Below are positions 1 through 26,365 of a stretch of 64,000 nt of DNA, piece after piece. The stretch's first letter is position 1, and each line of letters starts with the position of its first letter. Source of the stretch: an uncultured Lachnospiraceae bacterium (GTDB lineage: Bacteria; Bacillota; Clostridia; Lachnospirales; Lachnospiraceae); assembly GCA_947589095.1 (NCBI GenBank), contig CANQBX010000006.1, positions 1 to 64,000 on the forward strand. The letters are read 5' to 3'. Under the pieces are notes generated by a model. That model was not told the origin of the DNA. It searched no databases and was given only the letters and a program-made list of their open reading frames with translations. The position numbers and the translations under genes were made by a program.

Positions 1-2225
1 GGTGTGCGCTCTGGTTCTGGCCGATTGATAAAGCTGATTTGCTGCCAAGTAGAAGTGAGTTTCTGTTTGACATGTCGCTGATTTTGGAAGGCACAATGGC
101 ATCCGTAAATGTAAGTAGAGAGGCTAAAGGCGGACAGCTGTCATTGTTCCCTACAGAAATGGAACAGATTGCACTGGATATAGTTGCTACCTATGGTTCC
201 GGATCTGTGGTAGATATTCCGCGTCTGCGTAAAGAAAATCCGCGTCTTAATCTTGCATATGAGATTGCTGAAAAGAACCATTTTATGCATTGGGAATTGG
301 AGTTTGCTGATCTCTTTGCAGAGAGAGGAGGGTTCGATCTAGTAGTAGGTAATCCTCCATGGATTGCACTTAAATGGAATGAATTAGACGTTATTTCTGA
401 TATGGAACCAAGAGTAGTAATAAAAAAATACTCTGCAAGTCAGATCAATAGCGAACGTCTTAGGATGCTTTTTACAAAAGAAAGAATGGATTTATACCTC
501 TCTGAATATTCAGAAACATCTGGGACACAGAGTTATTTGAATGCTGTACAGAATTATTCAATTCTTAGTGGAATGAAAACAAATCTGTACAAATGCTTTA
601 TTCCGCTTAGCTGGTATATAGGAAATAATGATGCTGTCATGTCATTTCTTCATCCCGAAGGGACATATGACGATCCCAAAGGTGGAGTGTTTAGAGCGTA
701 TATGTATCCGAAGTTGAAGAGACACTATCAGTTTGTAAACGAAAAGTTTCTCTTTAAAGAAATAAGTCATACATCTATCTACAGCATTAATATTTATTGC
801 AATAGAGAGAGTACAAGTTTTGAACAAATATCGTCATTATATGATCCCATAACTATTGATCGATCACAAGAGGACAAAGGAAGTAAACTGGTTCCGGAGA
901 TAAAAGATGAGAATGGCGATTGGAATATATCTGGGCACAAGGATAGAATTGTACAGATAACCAAGTCGGATCTGAGGGTTTTGGCACGTCTGTTTGATGA
1001 TGAAAAAATGCCAAATGAAACAAGAATGCCATCTATTTATTCTAAGGATTTGATGTGTGTTTTGGAAAAACTTGCTTTACAAGAGAAACGAATAGGTGAC
1101 TTGAGTAATACTGTTTACATGACCCAATTCTTAGACGAAACAGCATGCCAGAAGAAAGGGATAATCGAGCCTGTAAATGGTTTTTCAGAAAATGTTCATG
1201 GTCTTGTATATGCAGGCCCTTACATTGGAATTGGAAATCCTTTATATAAAACTCCCCGACAAGAGAAATCCGAAAAAGCGGATTACGATAGAATAGATCT
1301 TACTTTTATTGATGATGATTATTATCAAAGAAATATATATCAAGTAAACCATAATTCAGATTATGACGATCCGCAAACTCCTTGGGGGACAAGTTATACT
1401 TCAGAATACAGGTATGTAGTTCGAAGAAGATTGGGGTTAAACCAAGAAAGAACTTTAATGGGTGCAATAATTCCGCCTGGTCCAAGCCATATAAATGGTA
1501 TTTTTGGGATGTGCTTTAGAGATATAAAGAATTTGGTTTTTGTCTCCGCACTACTTGAATCGTTGCCCTATGACTATTTTGTTCGCGCTCTTGGAAAAGG
1601 CGATATTTATAATGATACCGCTGGAAAATTTCCGCTTCCAGATGCTGTCTATCAAAATGAATTGATAGGAAGAACAATGCTGTTAAATTGCGTAAACAAA
1701 TATTATCGCGCATTATGGAATAAAGTTCTGCCTGAGATGCCAGTTGAAGGAAAATGGGCAAAAGAAGATCCTAGATTGGATAATAGATACTTTAAGTTTT
1801 CGAATTGGACGCCTAATACGTTTGTAAGAACTGATTATGCACGACGTGAATTGCTGGTTGAGATTGATGTTTTGGTTGCAATGAGTCTCGGTATTACACT
1901 TCATGAATTGAAAAACTTGTATTGCTTACAGTTTCCTGTTCATAAAAAGTATGAGGATGATACTTGGTATGATGTGAACGGTAGGATTGTTTTTACAATT
2001 AACAAAGGGCTTCCTGGTGTAGGTTTCTCACGTGCTGAGTGGGAAAACGGAATCAAAGATGCACCTGAGAACAAAAAATTCTATCGAACGGTTATTGATG
2101 ATACCATGCCCGAAGGTCCTATAGAGAGGACGATAGAATACGTTGCACCATTTGATCGCTGTGATCGGGAGAAAGATTACGAAATCGCTTGGGATTTCTT
2201 TGAGAAGAAATATAAGGGCTGCTAA
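1..2225 (+). CDS. N6-adenine DNA methyltransferase, DrmMI/Eco57I type (5' end cut by window)
   Basis: The frame is open from the first bases, so the N-terminus lies outside the window; the 741 codons seen are the C-terminal part of a larger protein. The motif NPPW (DNA near 351-362), preceded by FDLVVG, is motif IV of N6-adenine DNA methyltransferases of the Eco57I/type IIG group. The flanking text (HWELEF..LFAERGGFDLVVGNPPW) is the style of the large methylases found with DISARM class 1 (DrmMI). The SAM-binding motif I would be upstream. The long C-terminal part probably carries target recognition. The next gene starts 49 nt downstream in the same direction, so this is the first visible gene of a defence operon. 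Expected role: marking host DNA so that the downstream helicase-nuclease spares it. A BREX PglX-like or stand-alone type IIG enzyme is the alternative. Confidence 0.82.
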   Translation, partial: CALWFWPIDKADLLPSRSEFLFDMSLILEGTMASVNVSREAKGGQLSLFPTEMEQIALDIVATYGSGSVVDIPRLRKENPRLNLAYEIAEKNHFMHWELEFADLFAERGGFDLVVGNPPWIALKWNELDVISDMEPRVVIKKYSASQINSERLRMLFTKERMDLYLSEYSETSGTQSYLNAVQNYSILSGMKTNLYKCFIPLSWYIGNNDAVMSFLHPEGTYDDPKGGVFRAYMYPKLKRHYQFVNEKFLFKEISHTSIYSINIYCNRESTSFEQISSLYDPITIDRSQEDKGSKLVPEIKDENGDWNISGHKDRIVQITKSDLRVLARLFDDEKMPNETRMPSIYSKDLMCVLEKLALQEKRIGDLSNTVYMTQFLDETACQKKGIIEPVNGFSENVHGLVYAGPYIGIGNPLYKTPRQEKSEKADYDRIDLTFIDDDYYQRNIYQVNHNSDYDDPQTPWGTSYTSEYRYVVRRRLGLNQERTLMGAIIPPGPSHINGIFGMCFRDIKNLVFVSALLESLPYDYFVRALGKGDIYNDTAGKFPLPDAVYQNELIGRTMLLNCVNKYYRALWNKVLPEMPVEGKWAKEDPRLDNRYFKFSNWTPNTFVRTDYARRELLVEIDVLVAMSLGITLHELKNLYCLQFPVHKKYEDDTWYDVNGRIVFTINKGLPGVGFSRAEWENGIKDAPENKKFYRTVIDDTMPEGPIERTIEYVAPFDRCDREKDYEIAWDFFEKKYKGC

Positions 2226-2274
2226 TTCTTTGCAAAAGAAAAATGATATACAATTGAGAAAAAGGAGAAGAAAT

Positions 2275-4257
2275 ATGAACAGTAAAAATGCGCTTACAAG
2301 TGCGGTAATGCTTGAGACACAATGGGTAACTCGAAAAAAGGATATTTTGGATCTTATTACGCCTTTTGTTGAGTATTGTGTTGCAATGAGTACGAGTTTG
2401 GGGGAGATGGTTGACATATCGAAAGTCATTGCAGCGATGCACAGTAACTTTGGATATGTAGATATGCCAGAGATAATAATTAAAAGGATTTTTCAAAGAA
2501 ATACTCAGTTTTTTCAGAAAAAGCAAAGAAAATATTATCTTGTAAAATCACTAGATAGTGTTGTTGAAAGAATAGAAACGCGACGGAAAGAATGCGATTT
2601 AATTATTGATTCTGTTGGAGGAGCCTTGTTTCAATATCTAGAAAGTCACTGTCAACATGAAAAAGTTTGTTCAAAAGAACAGGCTTTAAACCTTTTGCAT
2701 ATGTTTTTTGCTTTTTATGGAATTGATATTAGCATTGATAGATTGCGAATAGATGCAATATCACGAAAAACATCAGAAGCTTTTTATTATATAGCTAGGT
2801 TTATTGCCGAGGGACAGATTCATAATACCGTTGAATATAAATATATTCTTGATCTTGTTAAGGGGTATTATCTCGAAACAGTATTATATCTTCAACCAGA
2901 CAATGGGAATTTGATGTCTGCAAACTACAAAGCTGTTGTTTTTTATTATGATACGCCATTCCTTTTGCGGTTATTAGGATATCAGAGTGAGCAGGAAAAA
3001 AAGAAGGCAGAAAGTTTACATGAAATGTTGAAAAGACAGAATGCTAGTTTCCGTTACTTCCCGCAAACAAGAAATGAGATTATTAACATTCTTACAGCGT
3101 ATGAATATTCTATAAATTCCAATGTGTTATCAAATAGGACATTAGACGGATTGGACGCTAAGCATTATACAGAGTCAGATGTGGATAGACTTAAAAATAA
3201 TTTTCATGTAACTCTTAGTAGAAAATATGGCATTGAACTGACGGAATTACCTAATTATTCTCAAAAATCTAATGGTAGTGTGGATGAAAGATTTGTTATT
3301 AATGAGAAAGATGCAGAATTATTTGTACGAAATAAGGTGGGACATTATAAGCCAGAAAGTTTGAAAGCAGATATTGATTCTGCCATTGCCATTCATAAAC
3401 TACGTAATGGCTTTGAAGGAAATAGAATTGAAAATTGCCGTCATTTGTTTGTCACAACAAATATAGAGTTTGTCAACGCATTTAATCAATACTATAGGAG
3501 AGAAATAGATAGTGACAATTTTGATTTGACAATAGATGTAGGACGTCTTGCAGCAATTACCTGGGTAAAGAGTAATAATATAGATGCAGATATTCCAGAG
3601 TTACAATTATTAGAAAATGCTTATTCAGCGCAGCAGCCGACACCAGAACTTATTGAAAAAATGTCGGAAGTGTTAAGTAAAATGGAAGCAGAGGGTATTT
3701 TGAGTTATGAAGAGGCAGTCACAATTCGATCGGATCATTTTGTGAGAAAAGAATTGCTCTTGAAGACTAATGGTCAAGTTGAAAAGATAACGGAGCCTTT
3801 TGTTGAACAAATACGGGAGGAGTATGAATACCGTTTAGTAAATCAAACTCGTGAAGATACAAAGAGTGAATTATATGCCTCTTTTCGCGAAAAAGAGGAG
3901 AAAACATATAAGGAAATTTGTCATAATGCAGAACGTATGGCTCATGAGGAGGCAGTAAAAGTAAAGAGAAAATTTATTAAGCGCGTAAATGGTATTATTA
4001 TTTTCATCTCTGTTGTTATATTCTTGGCAGGAATATATGGATGCGTTCATAGTAACTCTTGGGGCTGGAATATTCCTTATGGCATGTTTATAGCTTTATC
4101 ATGTATTTCTATATATGATACAGTAAAATCAAGGCGGATATGGATTTCAAAGTTGATAGATAAACATGCCAATATGAAAGAAACGAAAGCATTTGATTTA
4201 AATTATAATAAATACATAACTATTTACGACATGCAACGGCATTTGGATAGTAAATGA
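2275..4257 (+). CDS. PIN-like domain protein with C-terminal membrane anchor, defence operon member
   Basis: 660 aa; start chosen at the ATG behind AAAGGAGAAG (2261-2270), not the longer frame that overlaps the methylase. I do not recognise a named family for the whole protein. Around residues 225-240 the text FYYDTPFLLRLLG, followed later by an acidic DIDSAIA and LFVTTN, resembles the beta-strand/aspartate pattern of PIN-like nucleases. Residues about 545-585 are highly charged and probably coiled-coil. Residues about 588-640 contain two hydrophobic segments (IIIFISVVIFLAGIYG and MFIALSCISI) that should form a membrane hairpin. It lies between the methylase and the giant helicase in one operon, so it is probably part of the same system, perhaps as a membrane-tethered RNase effector. 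The PIN call is by motif shape only; codon use is AT-rich like its neighbours. Confidence 0.6.
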   Translation: MNSKNALTSAVMLETQWVTRKKDILDLITPFVEYCVAMSTSLGEMVDISKVIAAMHSNFGYVDMPEIIIKRIFQRNTQFFQKKQRKYYLVKSLDSVVERIETRRKECDLIIDSVGGALFQYLESHCQHEKVCSKEQALNLLHMFFAFYGIDISIDRLRIDAISRKTSEAFYYIARFIAEGQIHNTVEYKYILDLVKGYYLETVLYLQPDNGNLMSANYKAVVFYYDTPFLLRLLGYQSEQEKKKAESLHEMLKRQNASFRYFPQTRNEIINILTAYEYSINSNVLSNRTLDGLDAKHYTESDVDRLKNNFHVTLSRKYGIELTELPNYSQKSNGSVDERFVINEKDAELFVRNKVGHYKPESLKADIDSAIAIHKLRNGFEGNRIENCRHLFVTTNIEFVNAFNQYYRREIDSDNFDLTIDVGRLAAITWVKSNNIDADIPELQLLENAYSAQQPTPELIEKMSEVLSKMEAEGILSYEEAVTIRSDHFVRKELLLKTNGQVEKITEPFVEQIREEYEYRLVNQTREDTKSELYASFREKEEKTYKEICHNAERMAHEEAVKVKRKFIKRVNGIIIFISVVIFLAGIYGCVHSNSWGWNIPYGMFIALSCISIYDTVKSRRIWISKLIDKHANMKETKAFDLNYNKYITIYDMQRHLDSK

Positions 4258-4302
4258 TATTATTGTTTGTGTGTAATTATGCTATGAGGGAGGACATGCA
4301 GT

Positions 4303-7300
4303 ATGTTACCATCCGTACTTGCAAAGCAATTAGAAAAAGGTATCGGGGATTATATTGAAACCACATTTCCAATGACGAATGAACCTTTCAGAGGCTCCGT
4401 CCGGAATATGCTGGAGACAAAGGATTCTGTTTACCACGAACCCTATGTATCTGTGCGCCTTCCTTTTCGTGTGGCAGAACAGATGCCGGACTGTTTCGAG
4501 GCGATCCATCCTGCATACCTCCCGTATGTTCATCAAGATATAGCTTTTAAGAGACTGATAGGGGATGATGGGCAATCTACCTTGATTGCAACCGGTACGG
4601 GATCCGGTAAGACGGAGTGCTTCTTGTATCCTATTTTGGAGTACTGTTATCAGCATCGAGGAGAGAATGGCATTAAGGCACTCATTATTTATCCGATGAA
4701 TGCGCTTGCGACAGATCAGGCTAGGCGTATTGCTGAACTTATTCACAAAAGCCTGGAGTTACGGGGAAATGTGACTGTTGGTATGTATGTCGGTGGTCGT
4801 GAGCATACTCCGAGTCGTATGATGAGCGAAGATAATGTCATCACGGATCATGAGACGTTGCTTAATACGCCGCCAGACATTCTTATGACGAACTATAAGA
4901 TGCTGGATTACCTGCTTGTTCGTCCGAAGGATGCCGGACTTTGGAAGGATAACGCACCGGATACACTGAAATATATTGCTGTCGATGAGTTACATACTTT
5001 TGATGGTGCGCAGGGCACGGACCTGGCCTGCTTGCTTCGACGTCTGAAATCTCGTCTGTGGACACCGGCAGGCTATCTTTGCTGTATCGGAACATCTGCA
5101 ACGATGGGATCCAAAGACAACGGAAAAGGGATTCTTGAGTACGCATCGGAGATCTTTGGAGAACCGTTTGAAGAGAATGCAGTCATCACGGAGGATAGAC
5201 TTTCACCAGCAGAGTTTTTTGCAGATTCTGATATTACAGATTTTACAATTCCGGCAGATGAACAGGTTAGGAAACTCATCACTCTGACTCAGCAGGATGA
5301 CGAGAAAGCCTATATCGCTGAGGCAGTAAAGGCATGGACGAATCTTCCTGGTACCGATATTTCAACACCGGAGGGAAAGATCGTTTTAGGTAAGCAGTTG
5401 GTGCATCACAGCTTTATGCAGGCGATGATTTCTTTCATAAAGGGGAATTATTATCAAGTATCAGCAATCGTTGATGAATTGCAGGTCAATTATCCGGCAC
5501 TGAAAGAGATGAAAGACCCGGAAGAAGCTGTAAATGCGCTTTTGGCGCTTATTTCCTATGCCAGAACAGGATCGGCAGAAAGTATGCGGCCTTTCTTAAA
5601 CGTTCAGGTTCAGCTTTGGATGAGGGAATTGCGTCGTCTGGTGGCAAAGGTGTCACCGAAGATGGTTGCATATTCCATAGCACATGATCTGAACACTCAG
5701 CAGGCGAAACAATATCTGCCTGTGGTAAACTGCCGTGATTGCGGAGCTACCGGATGGACGTCGATATTAAGTGAACGTATGAATGCAACCATTACAAGCC
5801 TGGAAGCATTCTATAACCTGTATTTTAAGGCGGATGAAAAAATCGTGATGATGTTCCCTCATAAGGAGAGCGATTGTCCGCGGGGGTTCATAGAATCTCA
5901 GTTATGCCCTGAGTGTTTGCAGGTAAAGATCGGCGAGAACGTATCTGCATCTTGTGACAATTGTGGAGCTGATACGGTTAAAGTCCTGATTCCGAATCCG
6001 ATTAAAACTTCAGGTTCTAAAAATCATAAGCAGTTTGTGTGCCCGTTTTGCGGATCAAAGCGTGGCATCTCCCTGATGGGGCTTCGGAGCGCCACGGAAA
6101 TCAGCACGAGTATCTCACAACTGTTTGCATCAAAATTCAATGATGACAAAAAGACGTTGGCATTTTCCGATAATGTCCAGGATGCTGCGCATCGTGCAGG
6201 ATTCTTTAATGCAAGAACATGGAGATTTGGTTTTAGAAGTGCACTTCAGCGTTATGTAGAGAATGGTGGCGCAGGGAAGTCGCTTGCTGATTTCACAAAG
6301 GGGTTCATCGATTACTGGCATGATCAGATGGACGATGAAAGTTTTGTCAGTTTCTTTATTGCTCCGAATATGACCTGGATGCGTGCCTATGAGGAAATGA
6401 TCCAGAATCGTAAGCTGGGTAAGGATGCCCTTGCCAAAAAGCTGATGTCAGATATAGAAAAAAGGATCTCCTATGAGATCATGCTTGAGTATGGACTTAC
6501 AAGCTGCATCGGACGAACACTGGAGAAGTTCGGCTGTTCCTGCCTGTCATTCAAGGAGGAAGAACTTCTTGAGGTCGCCGGGAATGTGCATGAGCGTGTG
6601 ACCAATGAGATCGGGGCATTGCCGAATACATCTGCGAAGCGATATGAGCAGATGGTTGCGGGCTACGTAGACATCATGCGGCAGAATGGTGCATTTGATG
6701 ACGATGCATTCTATCTGTTTCTGAAAGAAAATGGAAATACCTACCTGCTCTCCAATGATCGGGTGAGCTGGATGCCAGGAAGGCAGTCCGGAAGAAATAC
6801 GCCACGATTTATTTTTAAGCAGAATAATCCCAAAGGAAAACGAAATTTCAATTTTGATACGGTGGCAGAGAGTAAGTACACAGACTGGATTTCTTCATGC
6901 TGCGATGAATTTATGACTGAGCCATCGACCTTTACAATGATCAGCCAGATTATTTTGGAGGAACTGGTGAAGTCCGGGATAGTGGCGACGATTCAGATTG
7001 CTTCGGACTATGTAGTCTATGGCCTGGATAAGGATCGTGTATATATCACTGATAAGGTGATTCAGCTTAAGTGCGATACTTGTGGAATTGGCCATGCTGT
7101 TTCTGAAGAAAATAAGGATTTATGGGATGGAGCGCCTTGCACGAGAAGTGTCTGCAACGGCTCGTTTGAAGCATCAGAGTGCGATGAGTTGGATTATTAT
7201 GGAAAGCTTTTTACATCTGGTGATATTGCCAGAATAAATGCCAAGGAGCACACAGGACTCCTGGAGAGGGAGGACAGGGAAGCTCTGGAGGTAGATTTCA

Positions 7301-10300
7301 AGCGGAGTAAGGATGAACAGAAGGTCTGGGACCCGAATGTTCTGTCCTGTACGCCAACGCTTGAAATGGGTATCGATATCGGTGACCTTTCCACCGTCAT
7401 CCTTTGCAGTATGCCTCCGGCTCAGGCACAATTCCTGCAGCGTACCGGGCGTGCAGGACGTAAAGATGGAAATGCATTGATGCTGGCTGTAGCGGCTGCG
7501 AGACCGCATGATCTGTACTTCTATGCGGATCCGCTGGATATGATGGAAGGCAATGTACAGCCACCGAAGATCTTCCTGAAGGCTTCTGCTGTTTTGGAGC
7601 GTCAGTTTGTTGCCTATTGCATGGATTCCTGGGTGAAGCGCGGAGTACCGGAACAGTCTATCCCTAAAAATATCGGTATAATCCTTGGGAAATTAGAGAA
7701 CCATCCGATGGATATGTTCCCGTTTAATTTCCTTAGCTATGTGCAGAATAATCTTACACATCTGCAGAACTCCTTCATCCAGCTGTTTGTTCAGTACCTG
7801 GATAATACGGCAAAGCAGGAACTGAAAGAATTTGCTCAGGGAGACCGTCTCAAAAAGAGTCCGATGCATATGAGCATCCTTGAAGCTTTTGAGGCGATGA
7901 AAAAGCAGAGAGATTCTTTGTCAGCAAGTATACAGCAACTGAAGGACATGGTGAAGGATCTGCAAAGCAAGCCGAAGGATTCTTCTTATGAGGATGAAAT
8001 AAAAGAACTGAAGGCAGAGCAGGCAGCTCTCATCAATGTATTAAAGGAACTGAACAAGAAAGATGTGTTTAATTTCTTATCTGATGAAGGACTGCTTCCA
8101 AACTATGCCTTCCCGGAGGCCGGAATTATTCTGAAGGCCATTCTTTATCGTAAGGACGAGGCAGATGCCGGCGAAGGTGAAGCAAAGAAAAAATATAGGA
8201 AGTCTGTTTATGAATATAGCCGTAGTGCTTCGGCAGCAATTAGTGAATTCGCGCCAAATAATAGCTTTTACGTTGACGGAAGAAAGCTGACGATAGATCA
8301 GATCGATCTGACTAGCTCCCAGTCGGCAAAGTGGAGATTGTGTCCAAACTGCTCTCATGCGCAGATTGAAGAAGTCGGAAAGAATACTGCATGCTGTCCG
8401 CAGTGTGGAAGCCCGGCATGGGCGGATTCCGGACAGGTTCGTAACATGTTGAAAGTGCAGATGGTCTATTCCAACATGGATTATACCAAGAGCCTTATTT
8501 CTGATGAAAGCGATGACCGGTCAAACGTATTCTACTGTAAGCAGTTGTTGGTAGACGTAGACGAAGACCATGATATTTCAAGCGCTTACCAGATGGATAA
8601 TGAAGAGTTTGCATTCGGTTATGAGTTTGTAAAGAAGGCTACTCTCAGAGAGATCAATTTCGGTGAAAGCGACATGGTGGGAGAAAAGCTTTCTGTGTCC
8701 GGTGTTGAGGATGTCAGAAAAGGCTTCAAGATCTGTAAATACTGCGGAAAGATTCAGCCGGATCATGGAAAGGAAGTACATACATTCTACTGTAAGACCA
8801 GGAAGATGCCTGCATCCAGCAACGATCCCTTTGAAGAGTGCTTATTCCTTTACCGTGAGTTTGCAACGGAGGCACTGCGTATTCTGATCCCTGCCACTAC
8901 AATGGATTCCTCCAATGTACGAACAGAATCATTTACAGCCGCTTTCATGCTTGGAATGAAGGAATATTTTGGCAATGTGGATCACCTGCGGGCAACAGTT
9001 AGCGAGGTGCCGATTCCGGATGCTGATTACCGGAAGCAGTATCTTGTTATATACGATTCCATTCCTGGTGGTACGGGATATTTGAAGCAGTTGATGAACG
9101 AAAAGAATTCGCTCATCGACATCTTTGAGCGTGCGCTTCAGAAGCTGGAGCAGTGCTCCTGCAAAGAGGATCCGCAGAAAGATGGCTGCTATCATTGCCT
9201 GTATGCGTATAGGCAGAGCCAGAATATCGGCGATATTTCACGTAGCACGGCAATCCGGATCCTGCGTTCTATTTTGAGCGGAAAAGACAATCTGACAAAG
9301 ATTGAGAAGCTGGCCAGCGTTCCCGTCAATTCCTTGTTTGACAGTGAATTGGAGCGACGGTTTGTGGAAGCTCTTGCTCAGATGGGAAATGAGAACCGTA
9401 AGGTGGATATTTCCAAGTCGCTTATTTCAGGCAAGGAAGGATACATATTAAAGATCAATGATCAGACATGGGAAATTGAACCTCAGGTATTACTTGATGC
9501 TACTCAGGGTGTCAAAGTAAGCTGCAAGCCGGACTTCATCATTAGCCCTGTCGGTAAATCGGATAAGCTTCCGGTCGCAATCTTCACAGATGGGTTTATC
9601 TATCATAAAGATAAAGTTGCAGATGATACCTTAAAGCGAGAGGCAATCCGGAGAAGCGGAAGATATCGTGTATGGAGCCTCAGCTGGAGAGACGTACAAT
9701 CTGTGTTTACACAGCAGGGAGATTACTTCACTCCTACATTGACTTATGAGAAGATGCCGTCCGGCACAAAGATGTACCTGCCTACGATCAGTGCGGCTAA
9801 AGCGGATGCTTTAAGACCGAATAAAATGTCCGCTATGGAACTGCTGATGAGATATCTGGAACTGGATGGATCTGATAAGTTATTTGCAGCACATGCGCAC
9901 GGCATATCGCTGTCGCTTCTGGAACCGACTAAGGCAGCAAGTTCTATCGATTTCATCAATTGGAATGATGTTACAGGAAAGGTGAACGGGCAGACTCATT
10001 ATACGGAAGATGATTTTGTACAGCCGGGAACATTTTTCGGAACGTGGATTCCACGAAGTGATAATACCCATCTTTACATGTATGCCGGAATTCTGGCAGC
10101 GAAGATGAAGGCTGACAGGAATGCAGCTGTTTCAGTGTGTGCAGTGCTGGATGATCGTAAAAACGCCAGAACAGATAAGTATGAACAGGAATGGAATGGT
10201 TTCTGGCAGTTCTCCAATGTGATGCAGTTTGATGATCAGTTTATTGCTGTATGTTACACAGGACTGGACAATCAGACGTATTCAGCATTGCCTAATGGCA

Positions 10301-10626
10301 AGGTGGAGACCGCAGCAGAGGATGTTGCACCGGCTGAAGTATCTATGGAAGCCTGGGAGGAGATTAAATCCATACTGTTTGATGATATCAGCAAGAGTAT
10401 TGCCGATGGATGTAAAGCGCGTGGTATTCCTGCTCCGGAAGAAGCTGGTTATGAGCTGGCAGATGCATCCGGAGAAGTCATTGCTGAAATAGAGTTGGCG
10501 TGGATTGAGAAGAAGATAGGATTTATGACCGAAGATCAGGCAGAAGATATTGAAAAGGCCAAAGCTTCAGGTTGGAAGATATTTACTGTATCGGATGAGA
10601 TAGATGATACGTTCAAGGAGGTGTGA
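4303..10626 (+). CDS. Giant DEAD/DEAH helicase with DUF1998 and PD-(D/E)XK nuclease domains (DruE / DrmA-DrmB-like)
   Basis: 2107 aa. Superfamily 2 helicase motifs: Walker A TGTGSGKT (97-104), DELH box (228-231), SAT (265-267), then motifs V/VI LEMGIDIG (about 1018) and QRTGRAGR (about 1045). Zinc-binding CxxC pairs lie at about 476, 545-590 and 1346-1371; a charged coiled coil spans about 1195-1255. A DUF1998 region with a Cys cluster (about 1510-1650, GGTGYLKQ and CYHCLYAY) is as in MrfA, DrmB and DruE. About 1676-1800 carries a nuclease-like stretch (CKPDFII, then LPVAIFTDGFIYH, then KREAIRRSGR) of the PD-(D/E)XK/Vsr type. The length matches DruE (about 2100 aa), while the operon resembles DISARM, where these functions are split between DrmA and DrmB. 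Start ATG follows GGGAGGA. It is the probable DNA-translocating core of the system. Neighbour spacing is 45 nt upstream and 3 nt downstream. Confidence 0.85.
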   Translation: MLPSVLAKQLEKGIGDYIETTFPMTNEPFRGSVRNMLETKDSVYHEPYVSVRLPFRVAEQMPDCFEAIHPAYLPYVHQDIAFKRLIGDDGQSTLIATGTGSGKTECFLYPILEYCYQHRGENGIKALIIYPMNALATDQARRIAELIHKSLELRGNVTVGMYVGGREHTPSRMMSEDNVITDHETLLNTPPDILMTNYKMLDYLLVRPKDAGLWKDNAPDTLKYIAVDELHTFDGAQGTDLACLLRRLKSRLWTPAGYLCCIGTSATMGSKDNGKGILEYASEIFGEPFEENAVITEDRLSPAEFFADSDITDFTIPADEQVRKLITLTQQDDEKAYIAEAVKAWTNLPGTDISTPEGKIVLGKQLVHHSFMQAMISFIKGNYYQVSAIVDELQVNYPALKEMKDPEEAVNALLALISYARTGSAESMRPFLNVQVQLWMRELRRLVAKVSPKMVAYSIAHDLNTQQAKQYLPVVNCRDCGATGWTSILSERMNATITSLEAFYNLYFKADEKIVMMFPHKESDCPRGFIESQLCPECLQVKIGENVSASCDNCGADTVKVLIPNPIKTSGSKNHKQFVCPFCGSKRGISLMGLRSATEISTSISQLFASKFNDDKKTLAFSDNVQDAAHRAGFFNARTWRFGFRSALQRYVENGGAGKSLADFTKGFIDYWHDQMDDESFVSFFIAPNMTWMRAYEEMIQNRKLGKDALAKKLMSDIEKRISYEIMLEYGLTSCIGRTLEKFGCSCLSFKEEELLEVAGNVHERVTNEIGALPNTSAKRYEQMVAGYVDIMRQNGAFDDDAFYLFLKENGNTYLLSNDRVSWMPGRQSGRNTPRFIFKQNNPKGKRNFNFDTVAESKYTDWISSCCDEFMTEPSTFTMISQIILEELVKSGIVATIQIASDYVVYGLDKDRVYITDKVIQLKCDTCGIGHAVSEENKDLWDGAPCTRSVCNGSFEASECDELDYYGKLFTSGDIARINAKEHTGLLEREDREALEVDFKRSKDEQKVWDPNVLSCTPTLEMGIDIGDLSTVILCSMPPAQAQFLQRTGRAGRKDGNALMLAVAAARPHDLYFYADPLDMMEGNVQPPKIFLKASAVLERQFVAYCMDSWVKRGVPEQSIPKNIGIILGKLENHPMDMFPFNFLSYVQNNLTHLQNSFIQLFVQYLDNTAKQELKEFAQGDRLKKSPMHMSILEAFEAMKKQRDSLSASIQQLKDMVKDLQSKPKDSSYEDEIKELKAEQAALINVLKELNKKDVFNFLSDEGLLPNYAFPEAGIILKAILYRKDEADAGEGEAKKKYRKSVYEYSRSASAAISEFAPNNSFYVDGRKLTIDQIDLTSSQSAKWRLCPNCSHAQIEEVGKNTACCPQCGSPAWADSGQVRNMLKVQMVYSNMDYTKSLISDESDDRSNVFYCKQLLVDVDEDHDISSAYQMDNEEFAFGYEFVKKATLREINFGESDMVGEKLSVSGVEDVRKGFKICKYCGKIQPDHGKEVHTFYCKTRKMPASSNDPFEECLFLYREFATEALRILIPATTMDSSNVRTESFTAAFMLGMKEYFGNVDHLRATVSEVPIPDADYRKQYLVIYDSIPGGTGYLKQLMNEKNSLIDIFERALQKLEQCSCKEDPQKDGCYHCLYAYRQSQNIGDISRSTAIRILRSILSGKDNLTKIEKLASVPVNSLFDSELERRFVEALAQMGNENRKVDISKSLISGKEGYILKINDQTWEIEPQVLLDATQGVKVSCKPDFIISPVGKSDKLPVAIFTDGFIYHKDKVADDTLKREAIRRSGRYRVWSLSWRDVQSVFTQQGDYFTPTLTYEKMPSGTKMYLPTISAAKADALRPNKMSAMELLMRYLELDGSDKLFAAHAHGISLSLLEPTKAASSIDFINWNDVTGKVNGQTHYTEDDFVQPGTFFGTWIPRSDNTHLYMYAGILAAKMKADRNAAVSVCAVLDDRKNARTDKYEQEWNGFWQFSNVMQFDDQFIAVCYTGLDNQTYSALPNGKVETAAEDVAPAEVSMEAWEEIKSILFDDISKSIADGCKARGIPAPEEAGYELADASGEVIAEIELAWIEKKIGFMTEDQAEDIEKAKASGWKIFTVSDEIDDTFKEV

Positions 10627-10629
10627 TAG

Positions 10630-12723
10630 ATGGAGTCAGCAGCAAAGGTAGCTATATCCGCAGATTTCCTGACTGCATTTGCAGCATTGCCGAGGCAAAT
10701 CCAGGGGAAGGTTACGGAGTTTATCAATAAGTTCCGCAATAATCCTCAGTCTCCGGGAATCAACTATGAGAAAATCAATGGGGGTATGGATAAAAAAATC
10801 TGGTCTGTACGGATCGATGATACCTACCGTGGTATTACTGTAAGACAGCCAGAGACAGGTGTTTATCTGCTTCTGTGGGTTGACCATCATGATGAGGCTT
10901 ATGCTTGGGCACGAAATAAAAAATGTGAGATCAATCCAAAGACCGGTGCCATTCAAGTATTTGATATTGTGACAACACCGGTTGTGGAACCTGCAGCGCA
11001 GGACTTTGTACTATTTGCGGAACTTACGGACGAGGGGCTGATTGAGCTTGGAGTTCCGGAAGAACAGATTCCATTCGTGAGATCCATCGGAGATGCACAG
11101 GAGTTCTATGCTAAAAAGGCCAGCTTTGCCAGTGATACATTCGAGGCGCTTTCCTGGGTGGTAGAAGGCATTCCTGCTGAGGAGGTAATTGAGCTTTTCA
11201 AAGAAGAGAAAGAGGGCAGCAAACCTGCTGAGAATCTGGCAGATGCTCTGGAAAGCCCGTTGTCCTTGAAGTCCTTTGTTGTGGTTGAAGGGGAAGAAGA
11301 ACTCCGTCGTATCATGGCAGAGCCGCTGGAGAAGTGGAGAGTGTTCCTTCATCCAACGCAGAGAAAAATTGTGAATAAAAACTATTCTGGTTCTGCAAGA
11401 GTACTTGGCGGAGCAGGAACCGGAAAAACAGTTGTTGCAATGCACAGAGCAAAGCATCTGGCAGCAGGGCTGAAGGACAAGGAGAGAATTCTTTTCACCA
11501 CCTATACAGCCAATCTTGCCTCTGATATTAAGGATAATCTGCGAAAGATATGTACGCTGGATGAGATCAGAAGAATTGATGTGATCAATCTGGATGCGTG
11601 GGTATCTCAGTTTCTTCGTGAGCATGGATATCCGGCAGAGATTGCCTATGATGAAAAGGCGGACAACCTCTGGGAAGAAGCGGTGACAGGAACGGACTTT
11701 TCCGGAGAATTTCCTGTGAGCTTTTATGAAGAAGAATATAATCGTGTAGTTGTGGCGCAGGAGGCTTTCTCGTTAGAAAAATATGTCAAGGCAAGCAGAA
11801 CCGGGCGCGGCACCAGACTAGACAGAAAAAAGAGAATGCAGATATGGAAGGTATTCGAAGCTTACCAGAATCTGATGAAGGAAAATCAGGTCCGTGATAT
11901 CAATACAGCCATGTATGAGTGCAGACTGTTAATAGAAAAAACATCCTCAGAGACGAGGTACAAGCATGTCATCGTTGATGAGGGACAGGATCTTAGTGCA
12001 AATGCGTTTCGATTGCTCCGATCGATTGCAGGAGAGGAGCACGAGAATGATATTTTCATTGTCGGTGATGCTCATCAGAGAATATATAAGAATAAGGCTG
12101 CTCTATCAAAATGCGGAATTAATATCAGAGGAAGAAGCAGTGTTCTGAGAATCAATTACAGAACTACGGAAGAGATTCGGAAGGCGGCATTTGCTTTGCT
12201 GAATGGAATATCCTTTGATGACCTTGACGATTCCTTCGACACCGGAGACCGTTGTCAGTCTCTTACGCATGGTTCAGTTCCGGAGATAATCGCTACAACG
12301 AATGCAAATGAGGAATTTGATGCAATCCTGACAAAGGTCAAAGGATTGATCGATGGCGGTGTGTCTGCAAAAAATATCTGTGTTGTTGCCAGGACGCACA
12401 GATTGCTGGATGATTATATCGCTCATTTCACTTCGAGTGGAATCCGCTGTTATGAGATCAAGGGAAATAAGGCGGATGATCGTGGTCTGGATGGGATCCG
12501 TGTTGCCACGATGCATAGAGTTAAGGGACTGGAATTCCAGTATATGTTTGTTGTAGCGGCCAACAACAGGATTATTCCATTGGCTTCAGCGATTGACCAT
12601 ACGGATGCCGTCAGTGAACAGGAAACAATGACAGCTGAAAAGTGTCTGCTATATGTGGCACTGACAAGAGCCCAAAAGGGTGCTTATATCAGCGGGTACG
12701 GGAAGATGTCAGAGTTTTTGTAG
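10630..12723 (+). CDS. RelE/ParE-like domain fused to UvrD/Rep-type superfamily 1 helicase
   Basis: 697 aa. Residues 1-95 look like a RelE/ParE/HigB-fold toxin module (FLTAFAALP, then WSVRIDDTYRGI and WVDHHDEAY). The rest is a UvrD-like helicase: Walker A GGAGTGKT (about 260-267), Walker B VIVDEGQD (about 446), GDAHQRIY and INYRTT, then the C-terminal HRVKGLEF and YVALTRAQ motifs. The start ATG lies 3 nt after the stop of the giant helicase, and its ribosome site AAGGAGGTG is inside that gene's end, so the two are translationally coupled. Family knowledge: a RelE-like head on a UvrD helicase is a recurrent defence-island architecture. Whether the head still cuts RNA, binds nucleic acid or only mediates contacts cannot be told from sequence. 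Confidence 0.82.
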   Translation: MESAAKVAISADFLTAFAALPRQIQGKVTEFINKFRNNPQSPGINYEKINGGMDKKIWSVRIDDTYRGITVRQPETGVYLLLWVDHHDEAYAWARNKKCEINPKTGAIQVFDIVTTPVVEPAAQDFVLFAELTDEGLIELGVPEEQIPFVRSIGDAQEFYAKKASFASDTFEALSWVVEGIPAEEVIELFKEEKEGSKPAENLADALESPLSLKSFVVVEGEEELRRIMAEPLEKWRVFLHPTQRKIVNKNYSGSARVLGGAGTGKTVVAMHRAKHLAAGLKDKERILFTTYTANLASDIKDNLRKICTLDEIRRIDVINLDAWVSQFLREHGYPAEIAYDEKADNLWEEAVTGTDFSGEFPVSFYEEEYNRVVVAQEAFSLEKYVKASRTGRGTRLDRKKRMQIWKVFEAYQNLMKENQVRDINTAMYECRLLIEKTSSETRYKHVIVDEGQDLSANAFRLLRSIAGEEHENDIFIVGDAHQRIYKNKAALSKCGINIRGRSSVLRINYRTTEEIRKAAFALLNGISFDDLDDSFDTGDRCQSLTHGSVPEIIATTNANEEFDAILTKVKGLIDGGVSAKNICVVARTHRLLDDYIAHFTSSGIRCYEIKGNKADDRGLDGIRVATMHRVKGLEFQYMFVVAANNRIIPLASAIDHTDAVSEQETMTAEKCLLYVALTRAQKGAYISGYGKMSEFL

Positions 12724-12757
12724 GGAAAGTAACTATCGGTTAAGGAGTATCAGAATT

Positions 12758-13891
12758 ATGAGTTTGATTCTATGCCCAGAATGTGGAACGAAAATCTCTG
12801 ATAGAGCGACAAAATGTCCTCATTGTGGCTTTCAGAGCGCGGATGCCGAGAGGCCTATTAGCGAACAAGATAAGTATGAGATAGTTCCTATTTTTGAATA
12901 TGATATTGAGGAGTGGAAACCTAATAGGGGAGATTTGAGTGTGATTTCCTATGAAGACAATAAAAGCCTTATCGAATATTTTGGTAGTTGGGAAACAATT
13001 CAGGTAAAACTCCCGGCAATTGCGGAAGTCATTGGAGCTATGGCGAATAAAGAACATGTGATGATCGCCAAAATGGATAACTATGTTAAAGACCTGATTG
13101 ATAAAGGGATATATCGCTTTACGATTGATAAGCAGGGAGAAATCCTTCCGACAATCAGAGACGCTGATGGTTTTGTAAAACAGGTGCGATTGGAGGATAT
13201 GGCTCTTACGCCTAACCTAACTCAATCTCTGAACAATCTATCTACACATGCCGTTATGGCTCAGATATTGGATGAGATTGAGTATGTCGGAGACGCCATT
13301 AGAGAAATTCACATTGAACTACAGAATGATCGACTGGCTATGGCTGAAAGTTCCCGCGATAAATTGAAGCAGGCACGGATGATACAGGATGCAAAGCTGA
13401 GAGAAGTCGCGCTAATCGGAGTAGTAAACGGCGCTACAGATGCGAAGAGAATTCTTATGCGGAATTTCTCACAGAATATGAGTCATATTATAGAGCATTC
13501 TCATAAGAGCGATCTTCAACTGATACTATCTCCGAAGGGTGAAAGAGATGTTAGCCAAAAAGCTATTGATTCTTTCCAGGCACTTGTGTACATAACAAAT
13601 GCTGTCCAAACAGAATGTGAAGGATATGCAATGCTTGGAGAATACGAACCGTGTCGTGAATGCTTAAGCGAATTTAAGACATTCATCGAAGAAAACGGTC
13701 TTAATAAGAGGGACACATTGCTTTTGCTAAACGAGAATTCTTCCCAGAAAAGAATTGAGATAGTGGATGAGTTTTCAGATATAGCTTCAAGAATATCGGC
13801 ATTTGATACATCTTCAGGACAGATAGAGTTTCGGATGCGAGATCTACTGACGACGACTGACGAAGGAGGTGAGGATGATGGCCAAGAATGA
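12758..13891 (+). CDS. Zinc-ribbon protein of unknown function in the defence operon
   Basis: 377 aa; start at the ATG behind TAAGGAG (12741-12747). The N-terminus is a double CxxC zinc ribbon (CPECGTKISDRATKCPHCG). The remaining 340 residues are mainly helical and charged, with no signal peptide or membrane segment; about 185-230 looks coiled-coil. An acidic tail (DEGGEDDG) ends the protein. I recognise no catalytic motif. It is separated from the UvrD helicase by 34 nt and its last codons contain the ribosome site of the next gene, so it is an operon member. It could be an adaptor or sensor subunit of the DISARM/Druantia-like complex, but this is inferred from position only. Confidence 0.65.
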   Translation: MSLILCPECGTKISDRATKCPHCGFQSADAERPISEQDKYEIVPIFEYDIEEWKPNRGDLSVISYEDNKSLIEYFGSWETIQVKLPAIAEVIGAMANKEHVMIAKMDNYVKDLIDKGIYRFTIDKQGEILPTIRDADGFVKQVRLEDMALTPNLTQSLNNLSTHAVMAQILDEIEYVGDAIREIHIELQNDRLAMAESSRDKLKQARMIQDAKLREVALIGVVNGATDAKRILMRNFSQNMSHIIEHSHKSDLQLILSPKGERDVSQKAIDSFQALVYITNAVQTECEGYAMLGEYEPCRECLSEFKTFIEENGLNKRDTLLLLNENSSQKRIEIVDEFSDIASRISAFDTSSGQIEFRMRDLLTTTDEGGEDDGQE

Positions 13892-14087
13892 GACCATTGA
13901 TAATAATGAGATAAGGTATTGCAAGAAGTGCAGATGCGAGCTTTCAAGTACCAATAAGCACAAACTCTGTGATAATTGTAGAAGAGAGCGTGCAGCGAAA
14001 ATTAGAAATGGCGCACTTGGAGCAGGGAGTATCGCACTCTTCGTCATAACCAAAGGGAAGCATGGGGGCGGTGGAGCAAAAGCGTAA
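13875..14087 (+). CDS. Small zinc-ribbon protein with hydrophobic C-terminus
   Basis: About 70 aa; ATG at 13875 or 13878, with AAGGAGGTGAGG (13863-13874) inside the end of the preceding gene, which it overlaps by 14-17 nt. Two CxxC pairs (CKKC and CDNC) form a short zinc ribbon, followed by a Gly/Ala hydrophobic stretch (GALGAGSIALFVIT) and a basic glycine-rich tail (KHGGGGAKA). It ends the defence operon just before a hairpin terminator. No family name recognised. The ribosome site is strong, so translation is likely. It may be a membrane-associated or nucleic-acid-binding accessory of the system. Confidence 0.6.
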   Translation: MMAKNETIDNNEIRYCKKCRCELSSTNKHKLCDNCRRERAAKIRNGALGAGSIALFVITKGKHGGGGAKA

Positions 14088-14106: not shown

Positions 14107-14144
14107 AGCGGCTTACCGGCATAATACCAGGAGCCGCTATTTTG
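14107..14144 (+). terminator. Hairpin terminator at the end of the defence operon
   Basis: AGCGGCT (14107-14113) pairs with AGCCGCT (14132-14138) and is followed by ATTTT. It lies between two converging genes, 20 nt after the small zinc-ribbon gene. A second T-run (GGTCTTTTTT, 14155-14162) follows and could help. Confidence 0.6.
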
Positions 14145-14175: not shown

Positions 14176-17100
14176 TCATGTCCGTTGGCATGGAGCAGGA
14201 TGTCCGGATTCTTTAAGCCTACGAATTTCTCCCGTTATATTTTCTCCCTCATAGGTAAATACAGCCTCCCAATCACTCCAATTTGTAATAGAGTAATCCC
14301 CTGCATGAATTTCTTTATCAGAATCTACCAGCCAAACTAGTTTCATTCCGGTCATATCAAGAAAAGTATCTAAGATATCTTTCCGAACAACAACACAATT
14401 CATTTTTTGTGTCAAATCTGTATCAAATGCAGCCAACTTTCCATTTAAATCATAATAAAATCCATCTTCTTGTTGTTGTCTCAAATTCATTATTTCAATA
14501 AGTTCGGCACACGGAAGACTACGGGAAATCGCTGCTTCTTTTGACGCATCATATTCTTCTTCCCATAATAAATCTGTTGTAGCATGAAGAATTTTCCCGA
14601 TTTTTTTCTCGATTTCCCTACTTCGAGTTTCCATTTTATACTGAGGATCTGGAACTACGAAATCATATTTTTCTTCCTCGTTATCCTCAGTTACATTTTC
14701 TTCACCCTCTTCATCCTTAAGCCACCCTCTGTACAGACGCAATAACGCTTCCATTTGAGAATAATCTGAAACTTGCACCGTTTCTGTAACTATTTCATAC
14801 TCGCCAGTTTTAATTTGTACATCTACCCATGCATTTTCATTCAACTCTCGGCAACTTGGTGACCATGGATATTCTCTATTAAAGACGGCGTATGTCTCAT
14901 GATGGGATGCTGTATCATCTGTGATAACAGATTGTCCATTTTCAGCGCATCGAGAAAGTTCATCTGCCTGTTCTGGACTAACAAAATAAGCATATAACCA
15001 ACTCCATATCAACAACTTTTCTGTACGTAAATCTTTACGTCCAGTGTCGCAATACTTCGTCAAACATATCCATTTAATTCCACAATGGTCTGTCAAAATT
15101 AATGTATCTTTCAACTCATCAAAATAAACACTCTTCGTTTCAAGCCAAGCCTTCTGCGCATCCGCAGTCAAAATATCACTGCTCCTATTTTCCTCTCTTT
15201 CCTTATTAGCATAGTCATCTAATACATCGAATTTCGGTGCAATATCACAAAACATAAAATTTGAATTCAACGTCGGGTCAAAATCTCTAACATACGGTTC
15301 CCATGCCCCTTCAAATTGAATATATTCTTTCTTCGAATAATTCCAGCGGTCAATCATTTTGCAATGATCAGAAATGCGGGCTAATACATTATACATCGTA
15401 ATCCATTGGTATTTTTTCCCAATCCTTTCTGTCTTTATAGTCTGACTTCTATCATGACTACCGCAATGAAGATCATGCTCTCCAAAATATTCTTCAGAAA
15501 AACCAAGCTCTGTCTGGATGTAGTATACGGAGTAATTAAATATCTTCTTGTCATCCACTTCAAAATTATGAAGAGCACTCTGGAAAACGTAACGGCCAAA
15601 ATCCCCATACATTCCCATACTATCAAATCGCATTGAATGCATTAACCAAAACATTGCACCAGTATATTTTTTCTCTAAATAGTGTTGATCCCCTATCTCT
15701 GGAATTGGATCAGAATTGTACGGTGGTATGATTTGGGCTCTATCTATCACACCCGTATATTCCGGATCCTCATAGAGGAATCGCTCAATAATCAATCGTG
15801 CATAATCTCTGAGTAGTATATCAGGGTATACTTTTTCTTGATTAAACACTGCCTGAAAAACATACTCTGCTAGTGCCTGTAAACTCTTACCATTTTCTCG
15901 TTTAGAACTGGCGCCGAACACAACTCCATATAAACGCTGAATTACATAAGGATCATTTACATCTTTAAATTTCTCAAGAATCTTTTGACACAGTTCAAAA
16001 TGTTCCTTCATAATTTCTATCATTGCTTTTGATGTATGATCTCTCAGCCATCGATTAGACGAAGTCAGAATCCATCCAAATAATGTTAAGAGTAACTCCA
16101 ATTGCTTTTCATTTGTTATTTTGAGTTTTTCACCCTTATTATACATTTGAATAAGTTGTATTATTCTGTCCGCATCATTTTTTGTCAATTTATTTATATA
16201 AATTGTCCAGAGATAATCTCTATAATTTAATTTATATCTTAAGAGGATGTTGTGAAGAAAATCGGCATTAAGTGGATGCAAAACTTTCACACTATTTCCA
16301 ATCAACATTGACCACAAATCTTCCAAATTGCAGGGATATTTTTTCAACAGATTTTCAAAATAATCAGCTGTCGGCATATACCGGATATCTCGCCATTGGA
16401 AAGAATCGATATACCTAGAGAATACCCGCCCTTTATCGTTGGGATCTTCTAGTTCAGCAATTACATCAATACACTCTTCCATATACTCCTCTGCATATAA
16501 TGCACAGGCATTTATAAACAAATCTATGTTCCAGGCCTTATGCAGTTCCCCATTTTTTATTCCTAAAATATTTGTAGATAAATATTTACATACTTCGTAT
16601 TTTGAACGGAACTTTTTCATAACCGCTTTTGCACAGTAATAATCATTCATCTGATCAAACGCAAAATACAATTTTTCCTTTCCTTCAAAAATAGATTCAT
16701 GTAAAATATGCTCTCTTACAAGATGACGTACAAAAGGCGCGACAGTCAGCCCATATTCTTTCCAATAGCTTAACTGTGCTAAATCCTTCCGAGAAATAAA
16801 TCTCTCCTCCTGTAATACCAACCATTCTGCAATTTCCATAACAAGAGGACTCAGAATATCATCATTTTCCGTATACCCTTTTCCTCTTAATTCTACTCTG
16901 AGGGCTCGAGAAATATTATCATTAGCATATTTAACTATTCGATCATACAACGTAGACAAACTAACTTCCTCGCCATTATACGTTTTACAATACAGGGTAA
17001 GGAAAAGCGGGTTTGACATCTCATAACCAAAATATTCTAACGGAGTAAATGGAATATTATAGTGATTCAGAAACTCTCTCACTGCCGAAATGCTGTTATC

Positions 17101-18552: not shown

Positions 18553-18676
18553 TTCAATTCCCTCGTCTTTAATTTTTGTCGCACAATCATTTCTCGATTA
18601 TGCCCTTTATTTAAGTAGCTTTGTATCTCTATGATCAATCCCCTATATCATCCTTAATCAAGATATTATCACTTTT

Positions 18677-18705
18677 ATTATACTCCACAATATATGAAAA
18701 TACAA
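18677..18705 (-). promoter_or_regulatory. Promoter of the Avs-like gene
   Basis: On the minus strand TTGTAT (18705-18700), a 17-nt spacer and TATAAT (18682-18677) form a good sigma-A site. Transcription would start near 18670, leaving a leader of about 118 nt. Confidence 0.55.
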
Positions 18706-18805
18706 TTTTATTATGCTTGAGTTTCCGTAGTTCCGTCTACAGAACCATAAACATCGCTATGACCATCCACAACTTTCTAAAGCTGTATCAAGATGTATGT
18801 TTTCG

Positions 18806-18834
18806 TTGATAGATTCAGACTTTAGTTATATAAT
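18806..18834 (+). promoter_or_regulatory. Promoter of the DUF262-HNH gene
   Basis: TTGATA (18806-18811), a 17-nt spacer and TATAAT (18829-18834) form a near-consensus sigma-A promoter about 50 nt before the ATG. Confidence 0.65.
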
Positions 18835-18889
18835 CAAAATTAGCAAGAATAGGTTAGAAACAAAGCAGATTATTGAAAGGTAGAGTCAA

Positions 18890-20668: not shown

Positions 20669-20704
20669 ATCTTTTAGCGTTGCGAAATATATGGAGGTGA
20701 ACGC

Positions 20705-22056: not shown

Positions 22057-22117
22057 AACCTATTAAATGGACTTAGCAGGATTCCCCAGCCATACTCTCA
22101 GAAAGAAGTGAAGAACA

Positions 22118-25217: not shown

Positions 25218-25264
25218 CGGGGATATAAAGATATCGGAAATGTGAAACAATAATATTCAAAACA

Positions 25265-25349: not shown

Positions 25350-25386
25350 AGATGTTAATTATATATTAACAGGAAGCAGGAAATTG

Positions 25387-26352: not shown

Positions 26353-26365
26353 AGAACCTCCGATA

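Follow-up and report, generated by a model that had tools for sequence, protein, structure and literature searches.

What kind of defence system is encoded by the six genes that open this stretch of DNA, and why does a 2 kb gene for a membrane protein stand between its methylase and helicase genes? The window, the whole 64,000-nucleotide stretch analysed here, comes from an uncultured Lachnospiraceae bacterium (assembly GCA_947589095.1; 4.1 Mb, 192 contigs, 97.6% complete) and starts at base 1 of contig CANQBX010000006.1 (C6). The operon consists of six open reading frames (ORFs) that run in one direction across bases 3-14087. The coordinates confirm the co-directional layout of the initial annotation, with gaps of 49, 45, 3, and 34 nucleotides (nt) and one overlap (Table 1). 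That annotation had proposed a hybrid of DISARM and Druantia and had suggested the name ARMADA for an anti-phage operon of this kind. The name proved correct, and we assign the core of the locus (ArmB, ArmC, and ArmD) by sequence to ARMADA type II. Taken as a whole, the locus is probably an ARMADA II operon that carries a cargo slot and is followed by a separate zinc-ribbon pair.

ARMADA type II is composed of ArmA (BrxHII-like), ArmB (PglX-like), ArmC (YprA-like, with a Vsr nuclease end), and ArmD (RelE plus a GajB-like helicase) (Bell et al. 2025 preprint, PMC12458937). According to the preprint text, the gene order is strict, protection in E. coli requires all four genes, the mechanism is non-abortive, and the four-gene E. 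coli system (NCTC 12900 ArmABCD) protects alone (PMC12458937). The visible genes of the window follow the published order B-C-D, with one cargo gene between B and C; the preprint text names the gene order as the rule, not the absence of intervening genes. The ArmB fragment belongs to a PglX-like N6-adenine methylase. It starts at the position matching residue 843 of the homologue of 1589 amino acids (aa) in locus L045, so that the contig end cuts off roughly the first 842 residues. An NPPW motif is located at residue 117 of the fragment and is followed by a variable specificity region from about residue 121; the 740 visible residues align at 51% with the ArmB of genome G670, the NPPW motif being conserved. 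ArmC is a YprA-family superfamily 2 helicase with DEAD, Helicase_C, and MrfA zinc-binding (DUF1998/MZB) domains in Pfam, a Walker A lysine (K103), and a Walker B aspartate (D228). Its C-terminus aligns with the Vsr-like region of the E. coli ArmC, and in this alignment the E, D, and DG..H positions are conserved. ArmD directly follows ArmC and contains UvrD helicase domains (Walker A K266, Walker B D450), preceded by a weak Gp49 match (E 0.0057, below the Pfam cut-off) in an N-terminal part that can be aligned to that of the E. coli ArmD.

The window ArmC is 36.7% identical over 98% of its length to an E. coli plasmid protein (H5), whose gene neighbours are annotated as a DEAD/DEAH helicase, a class I S-adenosylmethionine (SAM) methyltransferase, and an ATP-dependent helicase. 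The eight residues mutated in the preprint (ArmA K136 and D236; ArmB G605 and N971; ArmC K110 and D234; ArmD K266 and D454; PMC12458937) carry identical numbers in the plasmid copy. Five of them, namely ArmB N971 and both residues each of ArmC and ArmD, fall within the visible part of the window, and all five are conserved. As described in the preprint, protection is lost on mutating four of the five and reduced by ArmD D454N (PMC12458937). A four-gene ARMADA II without cargo is found on an E. coli IncY plasmid (L040), which is conjugative and carries a class 1 integron integrase and an annotated beta-lactamase gene.

Other known systems resemble the locus less closely. When the five larger operon proteins were compared with PADLOC-DB 2.0.0 (2023), a release older than the ARMADA preprint, the 2107-aa protein was scored as DruE (best E 1e-114) and the UvrD protein as GajB. 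Druantia III does share with the window a related YprA helicase, DruE, whose PADLOC models match ArmC. The window differs from it in the methylase, in ArmD, and in the C-terminus of ArmC, which is Vsr-like rather than PLD, and no DruH model appeared among the PADLOC matches of these five proteins. DISARM class 1 shares an SNF2-type helicase, a PglX-like methylase, and a YprA helicase (as compared in PMC12458937), whereas the window ArmC is one protein with a Vsr-like end, and no separate drmA, drmB (DUF1998), or drmC (PLD) is present. Neither PADLOC nor Pfam gave a PLD match in the five larger operon proteins. The match of the visible core genes to ARMADA II, with the mutated residues conserved, led us to reject the DISARM/Druantia hybrid; the DruE call came from a database that predates the preprint. 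Gene for gene, the core agrees with this described subtype in order, domain fusions, and mutated residues of the visible part, with ArmA upstream in relatives; the 2 kb PIN-like gene between armB and armC and the zinc-ribbon pair after armD have no counterpart in it. The preprint states the strict gene order, and its text describes no cargo slot (PMC12458937).

To place the additional gene, 84,980 species genomes were scanned with an alignment of seven ArmC proteins as the query, and the best 80 of at least 581 confirmed relatives, spread over many phyla, were used as ARMADA loci. In 52 of the 80 loci the sequence covers the end of ArmB as well as the start of ArmC; in 27 others the ArmB C-terminus is missing from the locus, and in L123 ArmB is broken. 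The armB-armC junction exceeds 300 nt in 27 of the 52 loci and 1 kb in 24, with a maximum of 9.2 kb; it measures 150 nt or less in 23 loci and 173-174 nt in two. Junctions above 300 nt are found in only 1/35 loci between armA and armB and in 2/69 between armC and armD. The corresponding Fisher values for the slot bias (3.9e-7 and 1.6e-10) are overstated because the loci are not independent: the 52 form 35 clusters at 60% ArmC identity, 19 of which have an occupied slot, four of these being mixed. Since large inserts may push a neighbour outside the fetched stretch, adjacency was also counted per gene, with L123 and loci with less than about 400 nt beside the gene excluded. ArmB lies beside ArmC in 23/70 cases (some of the 47 others may have no ArmB at all), ArmA beside ArmB in 33/34, and ArmD beside ArmC in 65/69.

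The inserted genes fit closely into the operon. Of 74 mechanically called ORFs of at least 150 aa in closed slots, 71 share the strand of the operon. In 24 of 27 loci at most 148 nt separate the end of the last cargo gene from armC, or the two overlap; likewise, in 22 of 27 the first cargo gene begins no more than 70 nt from armB or overlaps with it. The co-directional cargo and the tight borders indicate that the slot is built into the operon. A merely loose junction was rejected as an explanation, as the empty B-C gaps are as tight as the other junctions (-68 to 174 nt). We conclude that the armB-armC junction is a cargo slot of ARMADA II operons. The armC-armD junction is also used, rarely, with inserts of 3.6 kb in L118 and 2.1 kb in L069; L118 has a further 733 nt between armA and armB. 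Downstream of armD, a co-directional ORF of at least 100 aa starts within 150 nt in 19 of 54 loci with sufficient sequence, and the 3' end of armD may be a second, weaker attachment place. In G670 the ARMADA operon is followed by one run of genes (L030:3058-10008) for a TPR protein, a protein with a weak mad2 match, a DRT-associated DUF1848 protein, and a PrimPol-helicase protein. ARMADA is described in one preprint and mentioned by name in passing in the text of two other papers, and the open-licence literature searched, supplements excluded, holds no description of a cargo slot for it. The slot itself thus appears to be new, while layered effectors are already described for BREX.

The slots hold very diverse genes, some of them related to known defence systems. 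They include a GajA-like and GajB-like pair followed by a BLAST relative of the Schlafen-type L046 protein (L105), the Schlafen/HATPase protein itself (L046), a RecQ-like helicase with a DprA-like protein (L067), a McrBC-like pair of an AAA ATPase and a DUF2357-PD-(D/E)xK protein (L079), GmrSD (L114), SIR2 (L096), a protein kinase (L082), dynamin-like GTPases (L089, L120), a NERD-kinase-helicase protein (L081), a Sacsin-like ATPase with NOV_C (L113), and SMEK and DUF2326 proteins (L109). The list of closed-slot ORFs of at least 150 aa comprises 73 entries, L090 being excluded as a near-copy of L082. Pfam scans of 29 single entries gave 24 with a match at E <=0.01 (some below Pfam's own cut-off), one borderline case (E 0.0087), and four without a match. 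Over all 73, the commonest PADLOC models include AriA (5 members), HEC-01, GajA, and PtuA (4 each), and also MkoA, TmtA, PDC-M07A, and Leo models (3 each); these are counts per model for slot genes only, and one protein may count under several models because the ATPases are related. Cargo is seldom shared between loci: BLAST clustering of 146 sequences (82 from closed slots, 57 from unclosed loci, and 7 references) left 124 clusters. Beyond the 52 loci, inserts were seen of a 308-aa protein with a hydrophobic N-terminus by eye (G670), an M78-like protein (G669) with a 63% relative in L055, and a 185-aa ATPase-like protein in Nostoc.

Occupancy of the slot carries no trace of ArmC ancestry. On a FastTree phylogeny of 62 ArmC proteins (31 occupied, 31 empty), at least 20 changes of state are needed, close to the mean of 21.0 for shuffled states, and 41% of the shuffles require 20 or fewer. 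The five nearest relatives, with ArmC 73-97% identical to that of the window, all lack the PIN-like gene: L045 holds a 965-aa helicase and a 136-aa protein, L046 the Schlafen/HATPase protein, and L153 a 284-aa protein without Pfam match, and the slots of L154 and L057 are empty. The closest, L045, has an ArmC 97% identical overall (94-99% per 200 residues) and DNA 94.4% identical from the base preceding the ArmC start codon to the end of the L045 locus, with unrelated cargo. Its ArmB matches that of the window at 95-98% in the core, 28-57% in the specificity region, and 78% in the last stretch. Among 13 pairs of loci with ArmC identity of at least 85%, all seven with similar specificity regions (at least 72%) share their slot state, and five of the six with different regions (at most 53%) differ in it. 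Among 14 pairs at 75-84%, the slot state differs in three similar-region pairs and in eight different-region pairs, and three different-region pairs are both empty. Close pairs share members and are hence not independent, and over all 27 the three similar-region pairs that differ and the four different-region pairs that are both empty speak against a strict coupling. These comparisons hint that the ArmB specificity region and the cargo move together. A single recombination from the conserved ArmB catalytic core to the start of armC could swap both, and such a likely co-exchange would explain why cargo accumulates at armB-armC and not at the other two junctions.

In the window the slot is occupied by a protein with a C-terminal coiled-coil-like part and a membrane segment, which the initial annotation had called a PIN-like membrane protein. 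Searches yielded eleven relatives, 645-697 aa long, of which six are encoded on plasmids (Hymenobacter, Arthrobacter, Enterococcus, Klebsiella, Sporosarcina, and Pantoea), one is in the same assembly, and four come from other genomes of the phylum. A profile search detected the family in 8 of 398 genomes of the phylum, the own genome counted and three with pieces only; scans of viral contigs for it gained nothing. Although the relatives are only 16-22% identical to the window copy, D226, E268, D366, T394, and N396 (numbered from the ATG at 2275) are invariant in all 12 members, and all 12 have a strongly hydrophobic C-terminal segment. The order D...E...D...T-x-N (T/S-x-N/D) is that of PIN nucleases, and the acidic active-site set of PIN ribonucleases (RNases) is present throughout the family. 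On this motif conservation and a weak similarity to PIN profiles we label the protein putatively PIN-like. One relative, L140, lies 71 nt behind hsdM-hsdS-hsdR, and another, L131, is divergent from an annotated site-specific DNA-methyltransferase and a DEAD/DEAH helicase. A second PIN-like membrane protein of the own genome (L039:1040-2980, 20% identity) lies on the short contig C155, which carries no ARMADA gene.

The last two genes of the operon form a zinc-ribbon pair that is, by sequence comparison, an independent module common to other restriction-type systems. Ten such pairs were compared, and in each the genes of proteins 1 and 2 overlap, by 4-32 nt; protein 2 has a Cys4 ribbon (C15, C18, and C31 invariant, C34 nearly so) and a hydrophobic stretch. 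The pair stands beside non-ARMADA genes in nine other loci, the neighbours being named by BLAST to annotated references or by Pfam except where given by eye: a type III methylase, REase, and AIPR (L033, L130), AIPR with different upstream genes (L167), a HATPase_c_4-type protein (L166), a PLD-helicase restriction-type protein (L037), GmrSD-like genes (L169, L038), an HsdR-like gene at 23% identity (L168), and a Dam-like methylase by eye (L170); in L038 and L168 the contig begins just upstream. The copies of protein 1 are 94-98% identical in L033, L130, L166, and L167, with partly different neighbours, and 85% identical in L037 and L169. By these identities, the nine loci represent about five lineages, and the pair changes partners within lineages. 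In L037:6473-7996 and L169:10601-12154 the pair is followed by the same gene (507-517 aa, 56% identical), and the upstream gene differs (PLD-helicase vs GmrSD-like). The PLD-ResIII helicase type beside the pair in L037:8025-11997 (G050) also occurs in the window at 22118-24628, about 8 kb from the pair. Protein 1 is found in 8 of 391 genomes by a class-wide profile search, the own genome counted; a family-wide search with the whole protein matched 61 of 299 genomes, most matches covering the zinc ribbon only. It is absent from the other ARMADA loci (profile search of the 80 loci; BLAST for L153 and L154), and a plasmid search gave no match. In L171 protein 1 is shortened, with no protein 2 among the listed ORFs, and L172 has a partial domain only. 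A remnant of protein 1 (L034:9839-10030, G268) and one of ArmC (L036:11651-12070, G507) lie away from any operon and are signs of module loss. Perhaps the pair acts as a sensor or regulator with a small membrane-associated partner.

How the parts could work together is suggested by parallels. ARMADA would restrict invading DNA directly: ArmB would mark or recognise DNA, ArmA and ArmC would translocate, the Vsr-like part of ArmC would cut, and ArmD would help. The slot would take up co-directional defence genes or whole systems, which would be co-expressed with the operon and may serve as a second defence layer. The PIN-like protein would be an RNase that stays off until ARMADA is inhibited or infection proceeds and then stops translation, as proposed here after the model of PrrC. 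Effectors that include PIN RNases are located inside or next to the core genes of BREX and BREX-related loci and have been proposed as backup effectors (PMC12839542). The idea and the cargo classes overlap with those seen here (PARIS/Gabija-like, Schlafen, GmrSD, and PIN genes), whereas the host system differs, and the main text of that paper does not name ARMADA, YprA, DUF1998, DISARM, or Druantia (PMC12839542). PrrC inside EcoprrI fires upon inhibition of the restriction enzyme (PMC12707154), and DarTG2 lies between hsdS and hsdR (PMC12255303). Both are toxin-type genes within a restriction operon, an arrangement that resembles the window; they differ from it in enzyme families and operon, and sensing of inhibition is reported for PrrC. 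From these parallels, and from those with PIN defence, we favour a membrane-anchored RNase backup effector as the role of the slot protein, a tentative assignment in which our confidence stays below even.

The main rival, a serious though somewhat less likely possibility, is that the slot is a tolerated landing place and the PIN-like gene a passenger. It would then be an independent gene for defence or addiction, driven by the ARMADA promoter without sensing ARMADA. Several results weigh against our assignment at this point. Most other members of the family are solitary on plasmids and other mobile DNA, often beside recombinases or insertion sequence elements, which a passenger fits equally well. 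Furthermore, none of 1726 ORFs of at least 150 aa in 80 ARMADA loci and 16 others is a PIN-like relative, so the link between ARMADA and the PIN-like gene rests on a single case. The diversity of the cargo and the independence of slot occupancy from the ArmC lineage point the same way, and, as a possible analogy, one PIN protein has been validated that defends by itself and has no antitoxin (DS-3, PMC13092281). A mere passenger accounts less readily for the concentration of inserts at one of three junctions that are all tightly packed when empty, for the co-directionality of 71 of the 74 cargo ORFs, and for the relatives behind a type I restriction operon and divergent from methyltransferase and helicase genes.

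It is unlikely that the slot protein lacks nuclease activity and serves instead, with an inactive PIN-like fold, as a membrane-anchored sensor or regulator. The weak profile evidence agrees with this alternative: the window copy has no Pfam match at E <=0.01 and no notable Pfam, NCBIfam, or PADLOC family, and PIN_3 matches in two of the seven relatives scanned are weak (E 3e-4 and 6e-4, below cut-off). With hhalign, comparison to 18 PIN_3 proteins gave 9% probability (E 0.0037) for the middle region only, across 51 columns, among them those of the first D and the E, against less than 1% for the N- and C-terminal regions and two control alignments; because the 18 proteins (from 23 loci tried) were excised with a motif pattern placed around the first aspartate, good matches at that position are favoured. 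The NCBIfam matches were low-level ones to MotA only (E 0.0016), PADLOC gave two weak models in one of the 12 members each (best E 0.0031), a PDB profile search with the family a best E of 0.087, and single-sequence fold prediction of the PIN-like region failed (mean pLDDT 34.6). Against this alternative stands the invariance of five candidate active-site residues in 12 divergent members.

Rather improbable, too, is a decayed operon, in which ARMADA is broken at the contig edge and only the cargo genes are still under selection. The initial annotation had expected an SNF2-type gene upstream of the methylase, which agrees with the position of ArmA in all but one of the 34 relatives readable there. 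The own assembly, however, yielded no convincing ArmA when searched with the ArmA of a relative (weak matches of 25% identity, E 3e-8), and the N-terminal half of ArmB was not found elsewhere in it. With ArmA and about half of ArmB missing, an intact ARMADA is assumed; the absence of armA and the first half of armB may reflect an assembly gap or real loss. Decayed relatives are known (the ArmC fragment of G507, one stop in the ArmC of G319, and the broken ArmB of L123), but in the window the visible frames are all open, the catalytic residues are conserved, and the contig simply stops within ArmB. Finally, one obligate six-gene system with essential PIN-like and zinc-ribbon proteins, the hybrid of the initial annotation, is suggested by the single strand and the short gaps but is highly improbable, as the five nearest relatives lack the PIN-like gene, the pair stands beside other genes elsewhere, the two were found together in no other locus examined, and the four E. 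coli genes protect alone (PMC12458937).

The operon stands at the start of an approximately 26 kb defence island, whose further members extend over 14176-26415 of the window (Table 1). A scan allowing loops of 3-8 nt found no intrinsic terminator 3' of the zinc-ribbon pair; an inverted repeat with an 18-nt loop was seen by eye near 14,107-14,138.

Table 1 Features of the operon and of the neighbouring defence island in the window.
Feature	Position	Strand	Remarks
Methylase gene armB	3..2225	+	Open at window edge; C-terminal 740 aa of ArmB
Cargo slot between armB and armC	2226..4302	+	armC-side border at base 4302/4303
PIN-like gene (putative)	2275..4257	+	660 aa; ATG 2275 preceded by ribosome-binding site; 49-nt gap after armB
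armC	4303..10626	+	2107 aa; 45-nt gap after PIN-like gene
armD	10630..12723	+	RelE-like/UvrD protein; 3-nt gap after armC
Zinc-ribbon gene 1	12758..13891	+	377 aa; 34-nt gap after armD
Zinc-ribbon gene 2	13878..14087	+	69 aa; 14-nt overlap with zinc-ribbon gene 1
Avs2-like NTPase	14176-18552	-	Neighbour in island
GmrSD_N protein	18890-20668		Neighbour in island
HATPase_c_4/HTH protein	20860-22056		Neighbour in island
PLD-ResIII helicase and SAM methyltransferase	22118-25217		Neighbours in island
Abi_2 protein	25387-26415	-	Neighbour in island

A wider picture, doubtful as a whole, is that ARMADA II may be a two-part platform with a constant engine (ArmA, the ArmB core, ArmC, and ArmD) and one exchangeable cassette (the ArmB specificity region and the slot). 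The cargo would report engine failure, and the cargo of the window would belong to a new family of PIN-type RNases, anchored in the membrane, that joins type I restriction operons as well. The slot provides a search rule, namely to inspect the armB-armC interval of a widespread defence operon for new defence genes; relatives of known systems such as Gabija and GmrSD stand there beside unannotated genes, which are good candidates for new systems. The zinc-ribbon pair, which accompanies four or more kinds of restriction-type genes, is a second module of interest. Layered defence becomes testable within one operon, with an inner gene that would fire upon a block of the outer system. If the two-part organisation holds, a single recombination would renew the DNA specificity and the backup immune gene together.

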